Part shown: one piece after another, positions 5,317-13,490 of the stretch | Layout of the letters: each line of letters starts with the position of its first letter | How positions within the stretch are numbered: the stretch's first letter is position 1 | Source: an uncultured Alphaproteobacteria bacterium | Lineage (GTDB): Bacteria > Pseudomonadota > Alphaproteobacteria > CAAGCB01 > CAG-977 | Direction: 5' to 3' | Assembly: GCA_944393745.1 (NCBI GenBank) | Contig: CALYBD010000029.1 | Coordinates: forward strand, 1-32,787 | DNA: 32,787 nucleotides | Notes under the pieces: model-generated | Seen by the model: the letters and a program-made list of their open reading frames with translations, nothing else | Database searches by the model: none | What the model was told of the DNA's origin: nothing | Translations under genes and position numbers: made by a program

Positions 5317-5730
5317 TCAGCCCTCCCTGATGAGCTGATCAACGGGGCAAGGCGTGAAAAACAAATCCAGTTCCGCAAGCTCCAAAAGTTCGTCAACGGA
5401 GATGTATCCGGCCTCGAAACCGTATCCGAAACTCGCCCAACCGAACGCCTGCATTTGTTTGTCGGAGGTGTCTTTTTCAACGATATAGGCATCATACGAA
5501 CCGACAAAATAATGCAGTTGAGCCAAAGCGTTTTTGCCTTGCCCGTCCGTTTCATAGACTTGCGGCATCGTTTTAATGCGTCCGGCAAGGTTCAGAATAA
5601 TGTCCGCGAACGCTTCTGATTCTTCGGAATGAGTCAGATTTTTAATGAGTGTTTGAGCCTGCTTAACCGGCATAAACGGTTTAAGCGTTGTACTCAATTC
5701 GGTTAAAGCTTGATCGATTTTATCAGTCAT
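5317..5730 (-). CDS. DUF2958-like accessory protein of mobile elements
   Basis: A 137-residue protein. Residues about 65-130 (aromatic run, then FGWASFGYGFEAGYISVDE, then LAELDLFFTP) resemble the DUF2958 pattern of plasmid and integrative-element genes; the function of that family is unknown. The first 60 residues are helical. The start at ATG 5730 has AGAAGGAG about nine bases upstream; the longer frame from a GTG at 5760 would read through the leader hairpin. A near-identical leader precedes ardC, and both proteins begin MTDK, so the start region was duplicated together with the leader. It is followed at once by the 90-residue gene. Confidence 0.6.
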   Translation of the reverse strand: MTDKIDQALTELSTTLKPFMPVKQAQTLIKNLTHSEESEAFADIILNLAGRIKTMPQVYETDGQGKNALAQLHYFVGSYDAYIVEKDTSDKQMQAFGWASFGYGFEAGYISVDELLELAELDLFFTPCPVDQLIREG

Positions 5731-5940
5731 ATTGAAAGCTCCTTCTCTGTAAAAAAGCACTGGGTTAAAGGGTTTTTGGCATTGCGCCTGAAACCCTTTC
5801 GAGGTGCTTCGTCGGGGAGAAGAAAGCGATTGTCATTCCAAGAAAAACGGAGGGGTGTCGCCCGACTTGCAACGACACCGGAGCGAAAGTCGGGGAAACC
5901 GTTTTTCTTCCATCAGGCGACAGGGAATTGACAATCAAGA
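5731..5940 (-). repeat. Structured leader, copy 1 (upstream of the DUF2958-like gene)
   Basis: This ~210-bp element is about 95% identical to 7922-8130. In gene direction it folds first into a long rod: 5929-5935 with 5829-5835, 5924-5928 with 5835-5839, 5899-5909 with 5840-5850 (11 bp) and 5887-5894 with 5861-5868 (8 bp). In this copy an extra stem, 5854-5860 with 5873-5879 (7 bp), crosses the inner stem and gives pseudoknot order. The terminator-like hairpin described at 5749-5809 follows, then the ribosome site. It could be an RNA attenuator or a folded single-strand promoter. Confidence 0.75.
5749..5809 (-). terminator. Attenuator-like hairpin in leader copy 1
   Basis: On the minus strand AAGCAC (5804-5809) pairs with GTGCTT (5755-5760), and inside it AAAGGGTTT (5791-5799) pairs with AAACCCTTT (5767-5775). 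A run of T follows at once (5751-5756). The structure ends about 20 bases before the ATG at 5730. An intrinsic terminator placed before the ribosome site is what attenuation would need. Confidence 0.55.
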
Positions 5941-7035: not shown

Positions 7036-7062
7036 AAAAAGGAAGCGGTCAAGCCGCTTCCC
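7036..7062 (-). terminator. Intrinsic terminator of ardC
   Basis: On the minus strand GGAAGCGG and CCGCTTCC form an 8-bp stem around a short loop and are followed by TTTTT. The stem includes the ardC stop codon (7049-7051), so termination is tightly linked to the gene end. Confidence 0.7.
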
Positions 7063-7921
7063 TTCCCATTTCTTGGAACATCATCAGATAGTCAAAAGCC
7101 TTTTGCGCTTCGGAACAGGCTTTGAAAATCGCCTTTTTGTCGTTCTTCAAAACTTTCAGCCAAGATTGCAAATACGCCAGATTGTTTTTACTGAATTGAT
7201 AATCATAACCTAAATATCCCGCGACAAATCCCGCGCCTATATCGGCAATCAGCTCCTCGAAAGCGTAATCTTCACTGCCGAATTTACCCTTAAAATCACG
7301 ATTTAAACGACCTTTGTGTCCCGTGGCGTGTATTGTTTCATGCGCCACTGTGGAAACAAATCCGCTCTCTGTTTTGAATTTGTCTTTATTCGGCAACAAG
7401 ACAATATCATTTTTACTGTCGTAAGCCGCCACGTTTTCGCCGTAAGAATAATAGATATCCGTATTTTCAAAGAACGCCATGACGTTTTCTTTGACCGTAA
7501 ATTCGGCTTTCTCGACATCTTCGCCAAACCCCTCAACCTGAGAGCCGTTAAAAACGGGATAAGAGCGGGCGACACAAGCCTGATTTTCGATTATTTCAAG
7601 CTCACCTGTTTCAGAGTTTTCAACTTCGCATTTATAGGAAACGGGTTTCCAAAAAACGATAGTCGTCGATTTTTCGCCTTTTTTGACTTGGAAGCCTTTT
7701 TCCTGCCATTGCCGGTAAGTTCCCCAAACAGCAGAAGTAAAACCGTTAACGGCGGCGGCAAAGTTCAAAATCAAAATGTTAATGCCGCGATAAGCCTTTT
7801 TAGTCGTGATGTTCCGGGCGAAAGAAGAAAAGAACGGTTTTTCCCATTCGCCGGAAAAGTTTTCCAAGCGTTCAATAATGGTATTTGCGACTTGTTGAAC
7901 GGTATCTTTTTTATCGGTCAT
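7049..7921 (-). CDS. ardC: ArdC-like antirestriction protein (ssDNA-binding plus zinc metallopeptidase fold)
   Basis: ArdC proteins protect incoming plasmid DNA from restriction in the recipient. The 290-residue product has an N-terminal ssDNA-binding domain (about 1-130, with the family-typical KKAYRGIN and TYRQWQEKGFQVKKGE segments). The C-terminal zincin-like domain has the zinc motif HETIH at 194-198, GH at 201-202 and the downstream EELIADIGA (E222/E223). This is the full family length. The start at ATG 7921 has AGAAGGAG upstream; the extended frame to 7951 reads through the leader hairpin. It lies about 2.2-3 kb past nic, in the leading region, behind leader copy 2 and ahead of its own terminator. 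Early expression after transfer is expected from its role. Confidence 0.88.
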   Translation of the reverse strand: MTDKKDTVQQVANTIIERLENFSGEWEKPFFSSFARNITTKKAYRGINILILNFAAAVNGFTSAVWGTYRQWQEKGFQVKKGEKSTTIVFWKPVSYKCEVENSETGELEIIENQACVARSYPVFNGSQVEGFGEDVEKAEFTVKENVMAFFENTDIYYSYGENVAAYDSKNDIVLLPNKDKFKTESGFVSTVAHETIHATGHKGRLNRDFKGKFGSEDYAFEELIADIGAGFVAGYLGYDYQFSKNNLAYLQSWLKVLKNDKKAIFKACSEAQKAFDYLMMFQEMGREAA

Positions 7922-8130
7922 TTTAAAAGCTCCTTCTCTGTAAAAAAGCACTTGTTAAAGGGTTTTTGGCATTGCGCCTGAAACCCTTTCGAGGTGCTTC
8001 GTCGGAGAGAAGAAAGCGATTGTCATTCCAAGAAAAACGAAGGGGGATCTCCCGACTTGCAACGACATGGGAGCGAAAGTCGGGGAAACCGTTTTTCTTC
8101 CATCAGGCGACAGGGAATTGACAATCAAGA
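7922..8130 (-). repeat. Structured leader, copy 2 (upstream of ardC)
   Basis: This is the near-identical partner of 5731-5940. Most of the roughly ten differences fall in two small blocks (about 8043-8053 and 8068-8069). There the copy-1 stem is lost, but an alternative pairing appears (CTCCC 8049-8053 with GGGAG 8069-8073). The rod stems and the terminator-like hairpin are unchanged. Such clustered change with pairing kept hints that structure, not sequence alone, is selected. Confidence 0.75.
7941..7999 (-). terminator. Attenuator-like hairpin in leader copy 2
   Basis: AAGCAC (7994-7999) pairs with GTGCTT (7946-7951) and AAAGGGTTT (7981-7989) pairs with AAACCCTTT (7957-7965), followed by a T-run on the minus strand (7942-7947). 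It lies about 20 bases before the ardC ATG, exactly as in copy 1. Confidence 0.55.
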
Positions 8131-8193
8131 AAAACAAAGACCGTACAGCAAGATCTGTTTGCAGAGTTCTTTTCTTTTTGATAACGTGAAAAA

Positions 8194-8404
8194 GCTTTTA
8201 CAAAAAAAGTAAAAGCGGGGCTTAGAAACCCCTTATAGATAGTCGCCTGTAAATGGTGTATGGCGTCTGAAAATAATACACCGATTTCCGCAGTGGACGG
8301 ATGTCGGTGTAATAAGGCTATATGCACGAAAGCATCGAGCCGTTTTATCTATAACGGTTTCTAACGTCCGCCCACCTTTTTATGAAGGTGGGTTTCCGTT
8401 TTTT
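8194..8404 (+). ncRNA. Candidate structured 5' leader RNA with terminator
   Basis: A small hairpin (8194-8201 with 8209-8216) is followed by a large closed structure. GCGG 8215-8218 pairs with 8368-8371, TTAGAAACC 8222-8230 with 8356-8364, and TTATAGATA 8233-8241 with 8346-8354. Inside are hairpins that exclude each other: ATACACC 8276-8282 can pair with 8255-8261, or ACACCGA 8278-8284 with 8304-8310. A terminator-like stem then follows (8371-8378 with 8385-8392, T-run 8399-8404), directly before AAGGAG at 8407. This is the layout of a riboswitch or attenuator. I cannot match it to a known class by eye. Confidence 0.55.
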
Positions 8405-8419
8405 AAAAGGAGACCGTTC

Positions 8420-8887
8420 ATGCCATTCAAGCCCAAGAAAACAGGAATTAATTTTTTGTGCGACACGATTATTCTGCCGCAATATTACAATTTTGAACGG
8501 GAATCCGCTTTTAAAACGGATTTTGAAAATTTCAAAAAGATCCGTTTTGAATGTTGGAACCTCTTTATCGCCGCATATTACCTGTGCGCGCTGCAAAGCG
8601 TTTTGGGATCAATGAAAGAGGATGTCTATACTCAGTTAATGAAAAAAACGATGAAGTATTTTAGAAAACAATATCCGCTGTTTGATCGGGTTTTAAAAGT
8701 CTTTTTGGATTCTTTTGATCCGGACAATCCGTCCTGCACGGAAATGGGGAAACTGCTGTCATGGAATTTATTGCAAGCACCGGAAGAACAATTATCCATG
8801 AAAGATATAAATATGGGCTGCGATATCGCCGAGACGATTTATAACTTGGTCAGCGTCATCGATCCGGAAGAAATGACGGACTTTTAA
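8420..8887 (+). CDS. Hypothetical protein behind a structured leader
   Basis: A 155-residue soluble protein I do not recognise. It is rich in aromatic residues and helices (FECWNLFIAAYYLCALQSVLG, split here only as a description of one helical stretch), has an acidic C-terminus (VIDPEEMTDF), and shows no signal peptide or catalytic motif. AAGGAG lies seven bases before the ATG at 8420. It is divergent from ardC and precedes the Y-family polymerase by 112 bases, with a separate SOS-type promoter in between, so it is probably its own unit. The long folded leader upstream suggests tight expression control, but the function remains unknown. Confidence 0.65.
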   Translation: MPFKPKKTGINFLCDTIILPQYYNFERESAFKTDFENFKKIRFECWNLFIAAYYLCALQSVLGSMKEDVYTQLMKKTMKYFRKQYPLFDRVLKVFLDSFDPDNPSCTEMGKLLSWNLLQAPEEQLSMKDINMGCDIAETIYNLVSVIDPEEMTDF

Positions 8888-10823: not shown

Positions 10824-13490
10824 GTGGAAGATTTTGTATCCAGAGGAGAAAACATCCTTAATGTAATGGAAAAAATTTCAGATTCTGCACAAATCGAATT
10901 GAGCAACAATGAACGAACCAACCTCGTGAATTCTATGGCTCAGATAAATACGATGACGACGGATATGAACAAAATGTCGTCATTTTTGGATCAAAAGCAC
11001 ACCGGCCTGAATAAAGCAAAAAATCGCCCGTGCTTTATGCGCATCGTAGTAACCGATGAGGAAGGAAAAAACCAAAAAGAGTTTTTCTTTTCAGAAAGTA
11101 ATTATGTTCCAACTATTAAAGGGATAGCCCTTGCATCTAATAAAGCCCCCATTGGTATTTTAATGTCAAAAGACATCGGAGAAGATTTTGAATGGCATAA
11201 TGAGGTTTATTATGTTCGCGAAAAAGATATTTTTAATCCTACAAAAATAAACACCGATAAGTGGGATGGGGTGAAATTTTCTTTTTGCAAAGACAATGAC
11301 GATATTGAAACAGGAGATTCTATACAAAAAAGAATTTTAGAATTTAAAAACTGTTTAGAAAAAATCGATGAACAAAAAGAGGATATCTGGACTTTCGAAG
11401 GCGATGATATTGAAACATATGAAGATGATTTATTGGGGTTAAGTATCAGAAAAAGCATAAGCCTTAGAAGCCATCCTTTATTGGATAAGATCCAGGAAAA
11501 CATATATCGTCATCCGTTAGACAAACGCCTCAGCTTAATGGGCCCTGCGGGAACAGGAAAAACGACAACACTTATTCGCCGACTTTCTCAAAAACTTTTT
11601 GTTCGTCATTTGAACGAAGATGAGCAAGTTGTCGTTAAAGACGATGACGAATATCCGAACAATTGGACGATGTTCACTCCAACAGATTTGTTAGTTGCTT
11701 ACTTAAAAGACGCTGCAAATAGAGAAGAAGTTATCAATAAAAGCGAAAACATTAAAACATGGAAAAATTATTCCTATAATTTAGCACGTAATATCTTGCC
11801 TATTTTAAGCAAAGAAAAAGGTAAAAGCGGATTTTTATTGAAAGAAGGACTTCAGACTTTATCTGATCATTTTTTCAAAAATATAAACATTTTTTTTGAA
11901 GATTTTCTTTTATGGCAGGAATTCAAATTTGTAGATGAGACAAAAGAAGCTCTTAAGATTATTGTGTCCTACCTTTCTGAAACAAAAAATAATTTCATAG
12001 ATAAAATAAATACTGAAAACTTATACTCTATGATAAGCGGTCTATTATCAATAGAAAATGAAATAAAAAAAGAAGAAACATCTTTAAAAAGCAAGATTAT
12101 AGAAAAGTTAAACAAGATATTACGTTCCAATGAAAATATAAAAACAAAAGATGATAGAGACAAATTCATAAAATCATTACAACGATTTGCAGAAAACTTA
12201 AAAAATGACACAGATGAAGATTTTGAAACCGATGAAGATGAATTAAATGATGAAGAATATGAGCAAGAAACTTTAACAAAAGGAAACGCTATTTCAAGTC
12301 AGGAAATATTTTCTAAATATTTTTATAAACCATTAGAAAATTATTCACGCAGTATAGCCAATTCGAAAAAGCCTTCTGAAAAAAACAAGGCATTCAAAAA
12401 TTTCTTTGAAAAATATGGCTACTCTTTTGACGATAATGAATTTAAAGAAATCGGGAAACTTTCTATTGTTAAAAGTGCTTTTACAAAGATTTCTTCTCCA
12501 GAAGTTAAATATCCTCGTTATCTTACAAAGAGATACAAACGCTTTAGAATGCAGAAGGATTTTTCAAAATATTATGCTTCGGACTTTAAGACCCAGTCAA
12601 ACTTTATATCTCAAGATGAAATCGATATTTTAATTTATTCATATTTATATATTCTTGAAGAGTTTGACGCAAAGCATGTAACTCTTAAAGAAACAGCAAA
12701 CGCTTATCTGTTCCAGTTAAAAAAAGAATTAAAATATCAAATTTACGTCGATGAAATGACCGATTTCACACCGATTCAAATCGCATGCATGTTCCATTTG
12801 ACCAAGAAGCCATTTAGATCGTTTTTTGCCTGTGGTGATTTCAATCAACGTTTAACATCCAACGGTTGCTCAAACAGAAAAAGCTTATCTTGGGCAGTAC
12901 CCAGCATAGAATTTGTAGATATATCCGTCAATTATCGCCAAAGTAAAAAATTACACTCTTTTGCCGAAAAACTTGTATCTGATCCTTATGAAACAACAGA
13001 ACTTGAACAGCCTAATGTTTCTGACGGCGTCAACCCGGTATGGCTTAAATCTTCATCCGACAACGAAATTATAGCACGTTGGCTATACGATCGTATTATG
13101 GAAATCCAACGACAAATAAACACCCTTCCAACAATAGCTATTCTCGTTAATGATGAAGATGAAATTTCAACATTGAAAGCTCCTCTGGAACAAATGTTAG
13201 AAGAAGCGAGCATTCGCGTCGAAGCTTGTTACGAAGGAAAATTCACAGGAGAAGAGAATAATGTTAGAATTTTTTCTGTTGAACACATTAAAGGATTAGA
13301 GTTCGAAGCAGTTTTCTTTATAAATATAGATAAATTAGCAACGAAGACACAGCAGTTTACAAAATATATGTACGTAGGAGCAACCAGAGCTGCAACTTAT
13401 TTTGGTATAACAACAACATCTTCTGATCTTCCAAATGAAATTAAATATTTAGAAACTGATTTTAGAAAAGACTTTGTTTCAAGTGAATAA
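10824..13490 (+). CDS. UvrD-like SF1 helicase with a GreA-like N-terminal segment
   Basis: An 888-residue protein. Residues about 97-137 (SNKAPIGILMSKDIGEDFEW) resemble the C-terminal domain of GreA/GreB, which binds RNA polymerase. A full set of SF1 helicase motifs follows: Walker A GPAGTGKTT at 240-248, YVDEMTDF near 641, GDFNQ near 670, NYRQS near 703, VEHIKGLEFEAVF near 820 and YVGATRA near 849. Between Walker A and motif II lies an insertion of nearly 400 Lys/Glu/Asn-rich residues, AT-rich at DNA level. Translation starts at GTG with AAGGAG upstream. It stands alone between yolD and two small unknown genes. Comparable helicases occur in phage-defence islands and in transcription-coupled repair; which applies is not clear from sequence. 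Confidence 0.82.
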   Translation: MEDFVSRGENILNVMEKISDSAQIELSNNERTNLVNSMAQINTMTTDMNKMSSFLDQKHTGLNKAKNRPCFMRIVVTDEEGKNQKEFFFSESNYVPTIKGIALASNKAPIGILMSKDIGEDFEWHNEVYYVREKDIFNPTKINTDKWDGVKFSFCKDNDDIETGDSIQKRILEFKNCLEKIDEQKEDIWTFEGDDIETYEDDLLGLSIRKSISLRSHPLLDKIQENIYRHPLDKRLSLMGPAGTGKTTTLIRRLSQKLFVRHLNEDEQVVVKDDDEYPNNWTMFTPTDLLVAYLKDAANREEVINKSENIKTWKNYSYNLARNILPILSKEKGKSGFLLKEGLQTLSDHFFKNINIFFEDFLLWQEFKFVDETKEALKIIVSYLSETKNNFIDKINTENLYSMISGLLSIENEIKKEETSLKSKIIEKLNKILRSNENIKTKDDRDKFIKSLQRFAENLKNDTDEDFETDEDELNDEEYEQETLTKGNAISSQEIFSKYFYKPLENYSRSIANSKKPSEKNKAFKNFFEKYGYSFDDNEFKEIGKLSIVKSAFTKISSPEVKYPRYLTKRYKRFRMQKDFSKYYASDFKTQSNFISQDEIDILIYSYLYILEEFDAKHVTLKETANAYLFQLKKELKYQIYVDEMTDFTPIQIACMFHLTKKPFRSFFACGDFNQRLTSNGCSNRKSLSWAVPSIEFVDISVNYRQSKKLHSFAEKLVSDPYETTELEQPNVSDGVNPVWLKSSSDNEIIARWLYDRIMEIQRQINTLPTIAILVNDEDEISTLKAPLEQMLEEASIRVEACYEGKFTGEENNVRIFSVEHIKGLEFEAVFFINIDKLATKTQQFTKYMYVGATRAATYFGITTTSSDLPNEIKYLETDFRKDFVSSE

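Follow-up and report, generated by a model that had tools for sequence, protein, structure and literature searches.

The 226-nt leader that ends directly before a 155-aa gene, for which no Pfam or PHROG match was found, raises the question of what kind of regulatory RNA it may encode and on what that RNA would act. The leader lies in the window, by which we mean the whole stretch of 32,787 nucleotides from an uncultured alphaproteobacterium that was analysed. The original prediction described it as a riboswitch-like cis-regulatory RNA with mutually exclusive hairpins. We propose that it is probably a C4-type antisense RNA switch (Table 1), a reading that sequence comparison supports by two alternative folds, by a triplicate complementarity and its covariation, by the position before genes, by a relation to the Rfam family RF02221 (sRNA-Xcc1), and by a C4-like topology. 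In C4 itself, RNase P cuts at the 5' end of the first stem, the segment b' covers the ribosome site, and the segment a' gives specificity (PMC5320573).

Table 1. Features of the leader and its gene in the window; fold elements, signals and roles are predictions.
Feature	Position	Strand	Remarks
-10-like motif TTTTGATA(A)	8177..8184	+	seen by eye, about 20 nt 5' of the 5' hairpin in most of 30 copies
5' hairpin P0	8194..8216	+	GCTTTTAC/GTAAAAGC; sequence varies among other copies
Outer closing helix P1	8222-8230 with 8356-8364		TTAGAAACC with GGTTTCTAA
P1 5' strand, a1-like (decoy for the target)	8222..8230	+	partner 8356-8364; covaries
Inner closing helix P2	8233-8241 with 8346-8354		TTATAGATA with TATCTATAA
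P2 5' strand, b1-like	8233..8241	+	partner 8346-8354; variable, always complementary to the hairpin-2 loop region
P3 hairpin	8243..8267	+	loop GGTGTAT can instead pair with ATACACC 8276-8282
P4 5' strand, ACACCGAT region	8277..8286	+	partner in the precursor fold ATGTCGGTGT
C4-like / sRNA-Xcc1-like core	8295..8373	+	closing helix 8295-8303 with 8365-8373
Core hairpin 1	8304-8309/8333-8338	+	
Core hairpin 2	8339-8344/8353-8358	+	antisense loop (b')
Core linker (a')	8359-8364	+	
Antisense strand AACGGTTTCT	8353..8362	+	pairs with the ribosome site
Terminator-like hairpin and T-run	8370..8405	+	5' side overlaps the core closing helix; stem pairs covary
Target copy, a2/b2-like	8409..8418	+	contains the Shine-Dalgarno sequence GGAG
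Controlled gene (predicted), 155 aa	8420..8887	+	97% identical copy in genome G176

The leader has a predicted folding energy of -88.7 kcal/mol, compared with -54.9 kcal/mol (sd 4.95) for its dinucleotide shuffles (z -6.8; 0 of 200). The two 9-bp closing helices agree letter for letter with the coordinates given for them originally, and a terminator scan likewise recovered the terminator-like stem (8370-8393) with its T-run 5' of the ribosome site; counting both strands, the region has four terminator-like sites where 0.5 would be expected. The -10-like motif is graded weak, because it was seen by eye and a sigma-70 consensus scan gave no plus-strand match at its position. The gene is located between the ardC gene and a UmuC/DinB-like gene. 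As originally stated, the duplicated ardC leader nearby differs from the leader studied here: it is a separate 177-nt direct repeat, 96% identical, at 5764-5940 and 7954-8130, before an ORF at 5317-5760(-) (phrog_5203) and ardC at 7049-7951(-), respectively. Further along the island, an 888-aa UvrD-like helicase (10824-13490) adjoins the UmuC/DinB-like and YolD-like genes and forms a DNA-repair cluster with them.

Used as a DNA query, the window leader finds six more places in its own genome, and a better-kept copy finds 21 in that genome; six congeneric genomes each yield 3 to 19. A covariance model (R1) yields 26 matches in the genome of origin, about 15 of which are strong or well kept. Matches to this model occur in 10 out of 12 genomes of the family, spanning three genera, and members occur in at least seven further families, a lower bound given that few candidates were scored per genome in a thin sample of the class. 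The pattern-scan matches include contigs of the uncultured Alphaproteobacteria RUG12246 (a MAG labelled Rhodospirillales) and UBA2903; the letters RUG we take to stand for rumen. A distant blastn search with the window leader among plasmids gave no match. The paired segments, whose absence from homologous loci had been named as grounds for doubt, are all kept in about 30 other copies and are incomplete in one: in genome G176, which belongs to another family, the similarity between locus L179 (G176:C200) and window positions 8301-8886 stops inside the leader, with the 3' half and the ribosome site kept and the 5' half missing, which reflects either decay or a simpler variant. Another locus, L005 (G000:C24, 38576-38977), near a contig end, is rearranged and carries a copy of the 3' half followed by a separate copy of the 5' half.

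Comparison of the copies reveals two folds that are incompatible in two places, P4 and the top of P1. Fold A, the presumed precursor, comprises P1, P2, P3, P4, and P5 and has 95.3% standard pairs across 30 copies, versus 85.8% in shuffles and 32-40% when slid. The covariation that the original prediction had proposed to look for is present in the closing helices, where 7 of the 7 aligned P2 pairs and 3 of the 9 outer pairs changed on both sides, P2 pairs taking up to five pair types among 30 copies. Fold B reuses the 3' half, with the closing helix GGGCGGATG/CATCCGCCC, hairpin 1 (TCGGCG/CGCCGA), and hairpin 2 (CCG/CGG), and the core alone is predicted to fold into this shape of closing helix, two hairpins, and linker. 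The either-way pairing claimed for ACACC is real: GGTGTAT/ATACACC and ACACCGAT/ATGTCGGTGT compete, and the former is preserved in 92.8% of cells (30 copies; 0 of 500 shuffles). In fold B, 97.4% of the pairs form and double changes are found in 7 out of 18 pairs, with 30 such cells compared with 8.0 after shuffling (30 copies; 0 of 500); the 30-copy covariation counts are strong and not independent, as the copies come from only seven genomes and the shuffles ignore relatedness. Judged from these paired changes, both mutually exclusive folds are under selection.

The original prediction missed the most important switch, in which the ribosome site is a second partner for the closing-helix 3' strand: AACGGTTTCT (8353-8362) and GGAGACCGTT (8409-8418) form ten consecutive pairs with a duplex energy of -14.1 kcal/mol. 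The consensus of the P1 3' strand, GGTTTCTGAACATCC, is complementary to GGATTGTTCAGAAATG, a region that contains both the Shine-Dalgarno sequence and the start codon of the following gene. In 32 copies, the antisense fit averages -15.5 kcal/mol to the own site, compared with -12.2 kcal/mol (sd 0.40; 0 of 20,000 permutations) to the sites of other copies and -5.2 kcal/mol to shuffled sites, and the antisense and target variants change in step, for instance CATACAAACC, GGTTTGTAACATCC, and GGATTTTACAAATG. The antisense/target combination of the window is private, fitting its own site at -13.4 and those of others at -5 to -10.7 kcal/mol; six sister copies share one common antisense sequence, with mutual fits of -16.6 to -18.1 kcal/mol. 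Among the copies tested, L020, L031, and L039 fit their own sites no better than other sites.

Genes downstream of the window group of leaders encode mostly lipoproteins, outer-membrane beta-barrels, and Cys-rich secreted proteins, in addition to a single hexapeptide transferase and a single HU-like protein. Many dispersed copies, several of them rearranged or at contig ends, might also be expected of a mobile MITE-like repeat whose inverted ends mimic a closing helix and have no regulatory role. We consider such an origin extremely improbable, since the copies stand in a single orientation before ORFs at a fixed spacing, covariation affects both their helices and the pairing with the target, and 27 out of 32 downstream genes have signal-peptide-like starts (judged by hydrophobicity with a simple rule) versus 15 out of 56 long ORFs nearby. 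The element looks as if it had been multiplied in this lineage into a predicted regulon of mostly surface and secreted proteins. In one genome, G006 (L017, L023, L035, and others), many leaders are found at contig ends, and the signal peptides of their genes are near-identical while the mature parts differ, a pattern that suggests families of exchanged surface or secreted proteins.

Scanned at gathering thresholds, the window matches no Rfam family other than tRNA. With the threshold relaxed, RF02221 scores best in the leader, at 8295-8381 with 24.8 bits (E 0.053), and an E-value scan aligns this model in full length and on the correct strand with the element in 17 out of 20 loci at 24-41 bits. 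A hit to a known class, which had been raised in advance as an argument against the original prediction, is thereby half present: relatives reach 41.4 bits, and the gathering cut-off is 53. The core fold of RF02221 (closing helix, two hairpins, and linker) is recovered both in the covariation of fold B and in the full-length model alignment. The family and the window element have in common the layout of the 87-nt core and the motif GCCGT..ACGGTTT.TGA.C...CC.CC, and RF02221 loci, canonical ones above the cut-off among them, likewise possess upstream and downstream target copies, both outside the Rfam model, which covers only half of the element. On these alignments, the 3' half of the window leader is a remote relative of RF02221.

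These matches bear on the rival view of the leader as a ligand riboswitch or a protein-sensing attenuator, in which the P2-P5 junction would be an aptamer choosing between P1 and ribosome-site pairing. A conserved multi-helix junction, the terminator-like stem, the pairing with the ribosome site, and a regulon of related genes would all agree with it; however, conservation is highest in the C4-like core that it has in common with RF02221, the loop and linker of which vary with the target, the downstream genes have no common metabolic theme, and no Rfam riboswitch matches the window at the gathering threshold or the leader at the relaxed one, so that we regard this rival view as unlikely. The structured leader with exclusive pairings, a terminator-like stem, and a ribosome site is retained from the original prediction. 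The ligand sensor is not supported, because both the repeated RF02221 matches under the cut-off and the arrangement a1/b1 - b'/a' - a2/b2 indicate a C4-type RNA.

sRNA-Xcc1 was defined by RACE as an 88-nt RNA and seen on Northern blots in Xanthomonas (PMC2996969), where it is found upstream of symE in integrons (PMC12444791). The length of the core matches these 88 nt; in contrast to the cis leader proposed here, however, sRNA-Xcc1 figures in the literature as a virulence sRNA that acts in trans. In Xylella, the RNA is reportedly sent out in vesicles. As sRNA-Xcc1 is integron-borne, an attC attachment site was also considered and rejected: RYYYAAC/GTTRRRY ends are absent by eye, and the copies lead ORFs. 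We searched for RF02221 loci and found them in 18 out of 385 genomes of the class and 41 out of 398 genomes of the phylum, with up to nine copies each. In 19 of these loci (L137, with no clear downstream gene, was omitted; L139 and L141 were kept despite having no clear boxes), the colinear two-box complement amounts to 11.16 nt downstream and 14.11 nt upstream, compared with 9.36 (sd 0.40) and 9.27 (sd 0.53) nt, respectively, after permutation. An independent set of 29 loci gave 12.14 downstream versus 9.00 (sd 0.35) and 14.66 upstream versus 9.65 (sd 0.37), each of the four comparisons at 0 of 20,000. An earlier downstream test, which scored free duplex energies across 125 nt of GC-rich DNA, gave 562 of 20,000 and is weak, because long chance duplexes dominate it. 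In many RF02221 loci (e.g., L129, L153, and L182), a GC-rich hairpin and T-run separate the upstream boxes from the core, a position like that of the isrK-type terminator in phage P1.

RF02221 loci in other alphaproteobacteria precede KilA-N, Rha-like, HTH, and Mrr-like genes. In phages and plasmids, matches over the cut-off are located upstream of ant in Rac-SA53 and Aaphi23, upstream of KilA-N in Acinetobacter phage 4316 and Vibrio phage Cla (in the latter overlapping the annotated ORF start), and upstream of Rha on a Pantoea plasmid; in Smp131, the match lies inside an ORF annotated as anti-repressor. The copies in these named records end about 40-46 nt before the ant, KilA-N, or Rha genes and have both boxes on both sides, the upstream ones being weakest in phage 4316. 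That the element is, as in Xanthomonas, a trans-acting sRNA lying before genes by mere chance is very improbable in our view: the blotted RNA and the identical antisense and target sequences of several copies in the genome of the window speak for it, and this identity makes cross-action plausible, but 48 RF02221 loci have a locus-specific complement directly downstream at the ribosome site, and the phage copies precede antirepressor genes. Given the triplicate pairing in these 48 loci and the phage copies, sRNA-Xcc1 itself looks like a C4-type antisense switch. This would assign to an orphan Rfam family a concrete function, C4-architecture antisense control of the next gene, which in phages would be the antirepressor; symE in the Xanthomonas integrons would be the sRNA-Xcc1 target if the RNA is of C4 type. 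A search of the openly readable literature yielded no link of sRNA-Xcc1 to C4 or antirepressors.

For transcription and processing of the leader, release of the core by RNase P, the direction of control, action in trans, and the cue for flipping, we infer the following course of a C4-type switch. One transcript would carry three versions of a signal, namely the upstream copy (8222-8241), the antisense within the core (8295-8373), and the target (8409-8418). In fold A, the upstream copy would hold the antisense strand and leave the ribosome site free. Once the 5' end is cut off or the upstream strand lets go, the core would fold alone (fold B), and its exposed loop and linker would pair with the ribosome site, either on the same transcript or, acting in trans, on those of sister copies, and would block translation. 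Early termination at the terminator-like stem may contribute. Because the full precursor is predicted to fold very stably, a trigger would be needed to expose the core. A phage-type antisense switch would here have become a multiplied, predicted regulon in uncultured alphaproteobacteria that include rumen members. More tentatively, and on balance doubtfully, a lysogeny-type switch of phages may have been domesticated into a genome-wide regulon, in which about 15 leaders per genome would have antisense "dialects" in common. Expressing one surface-protein gene could then silence its sisters in trans, whereas private dialects, like that of the window, would be insulated on mobile islands.

Comparison with C4 of phages P1 and P7 (RF01695, with c4-a1b1 RF03163) reveals the same architecture. 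The phage P1 record has the order a1, b1, 77-nt C4 RNA, a2, b2, and icd, with spacing similar to that of the window leader, and a hairpin just 5' of a1, as in the window. The C4 consensus consists of a closing helix, a tetraloop hairpin, a hairpin with a 12-nt loop, and a 7-nt linker, which is the topology of the core; in both systems, a second target copy (a1-b1) stands upstream of the antisense RNA, b' occupies a hairpin loop and a' the linker, a2-b2 lies at the ribosome site of the next gene, CC follows the closing helix, and the gene starts about 50 nt after the RNA. ACC or GCC, resembling an RNase P substrate, follows the core closing helix in 27 out of 30 copies, and RCC occurs at a fixed position in 22 out of 49 RF02221 loci. 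The antisense is complementary to two boxes in canonical RF02221 and C4, whereas the target copy of the window group mimics the outer (P1) box only and not the P2 box. Also unlike C4, the window element has no RF01695 score (no match at E up to 10 in 20 loci), precedes a functionally unassigned gene where C4 has icd/ant, and has a precursor that also pairs P4 against hairpin 1. By score, it belongs to neither RF02221 nor RF01695, and on the features compared the most fitting name for it is that of a divergent C4-type leader related to RF02221. In Acinetobacter baumannii, the C4-like Group 1 sRNAs conform to the C4 motif and are described as free sRNAs (PMC5320573). Like the window element, they represent a phage-type C4 RNA multiplied in one genome with variable a' loops; in the window element, however, every copy precedes an ORF and has retained a target of its own.
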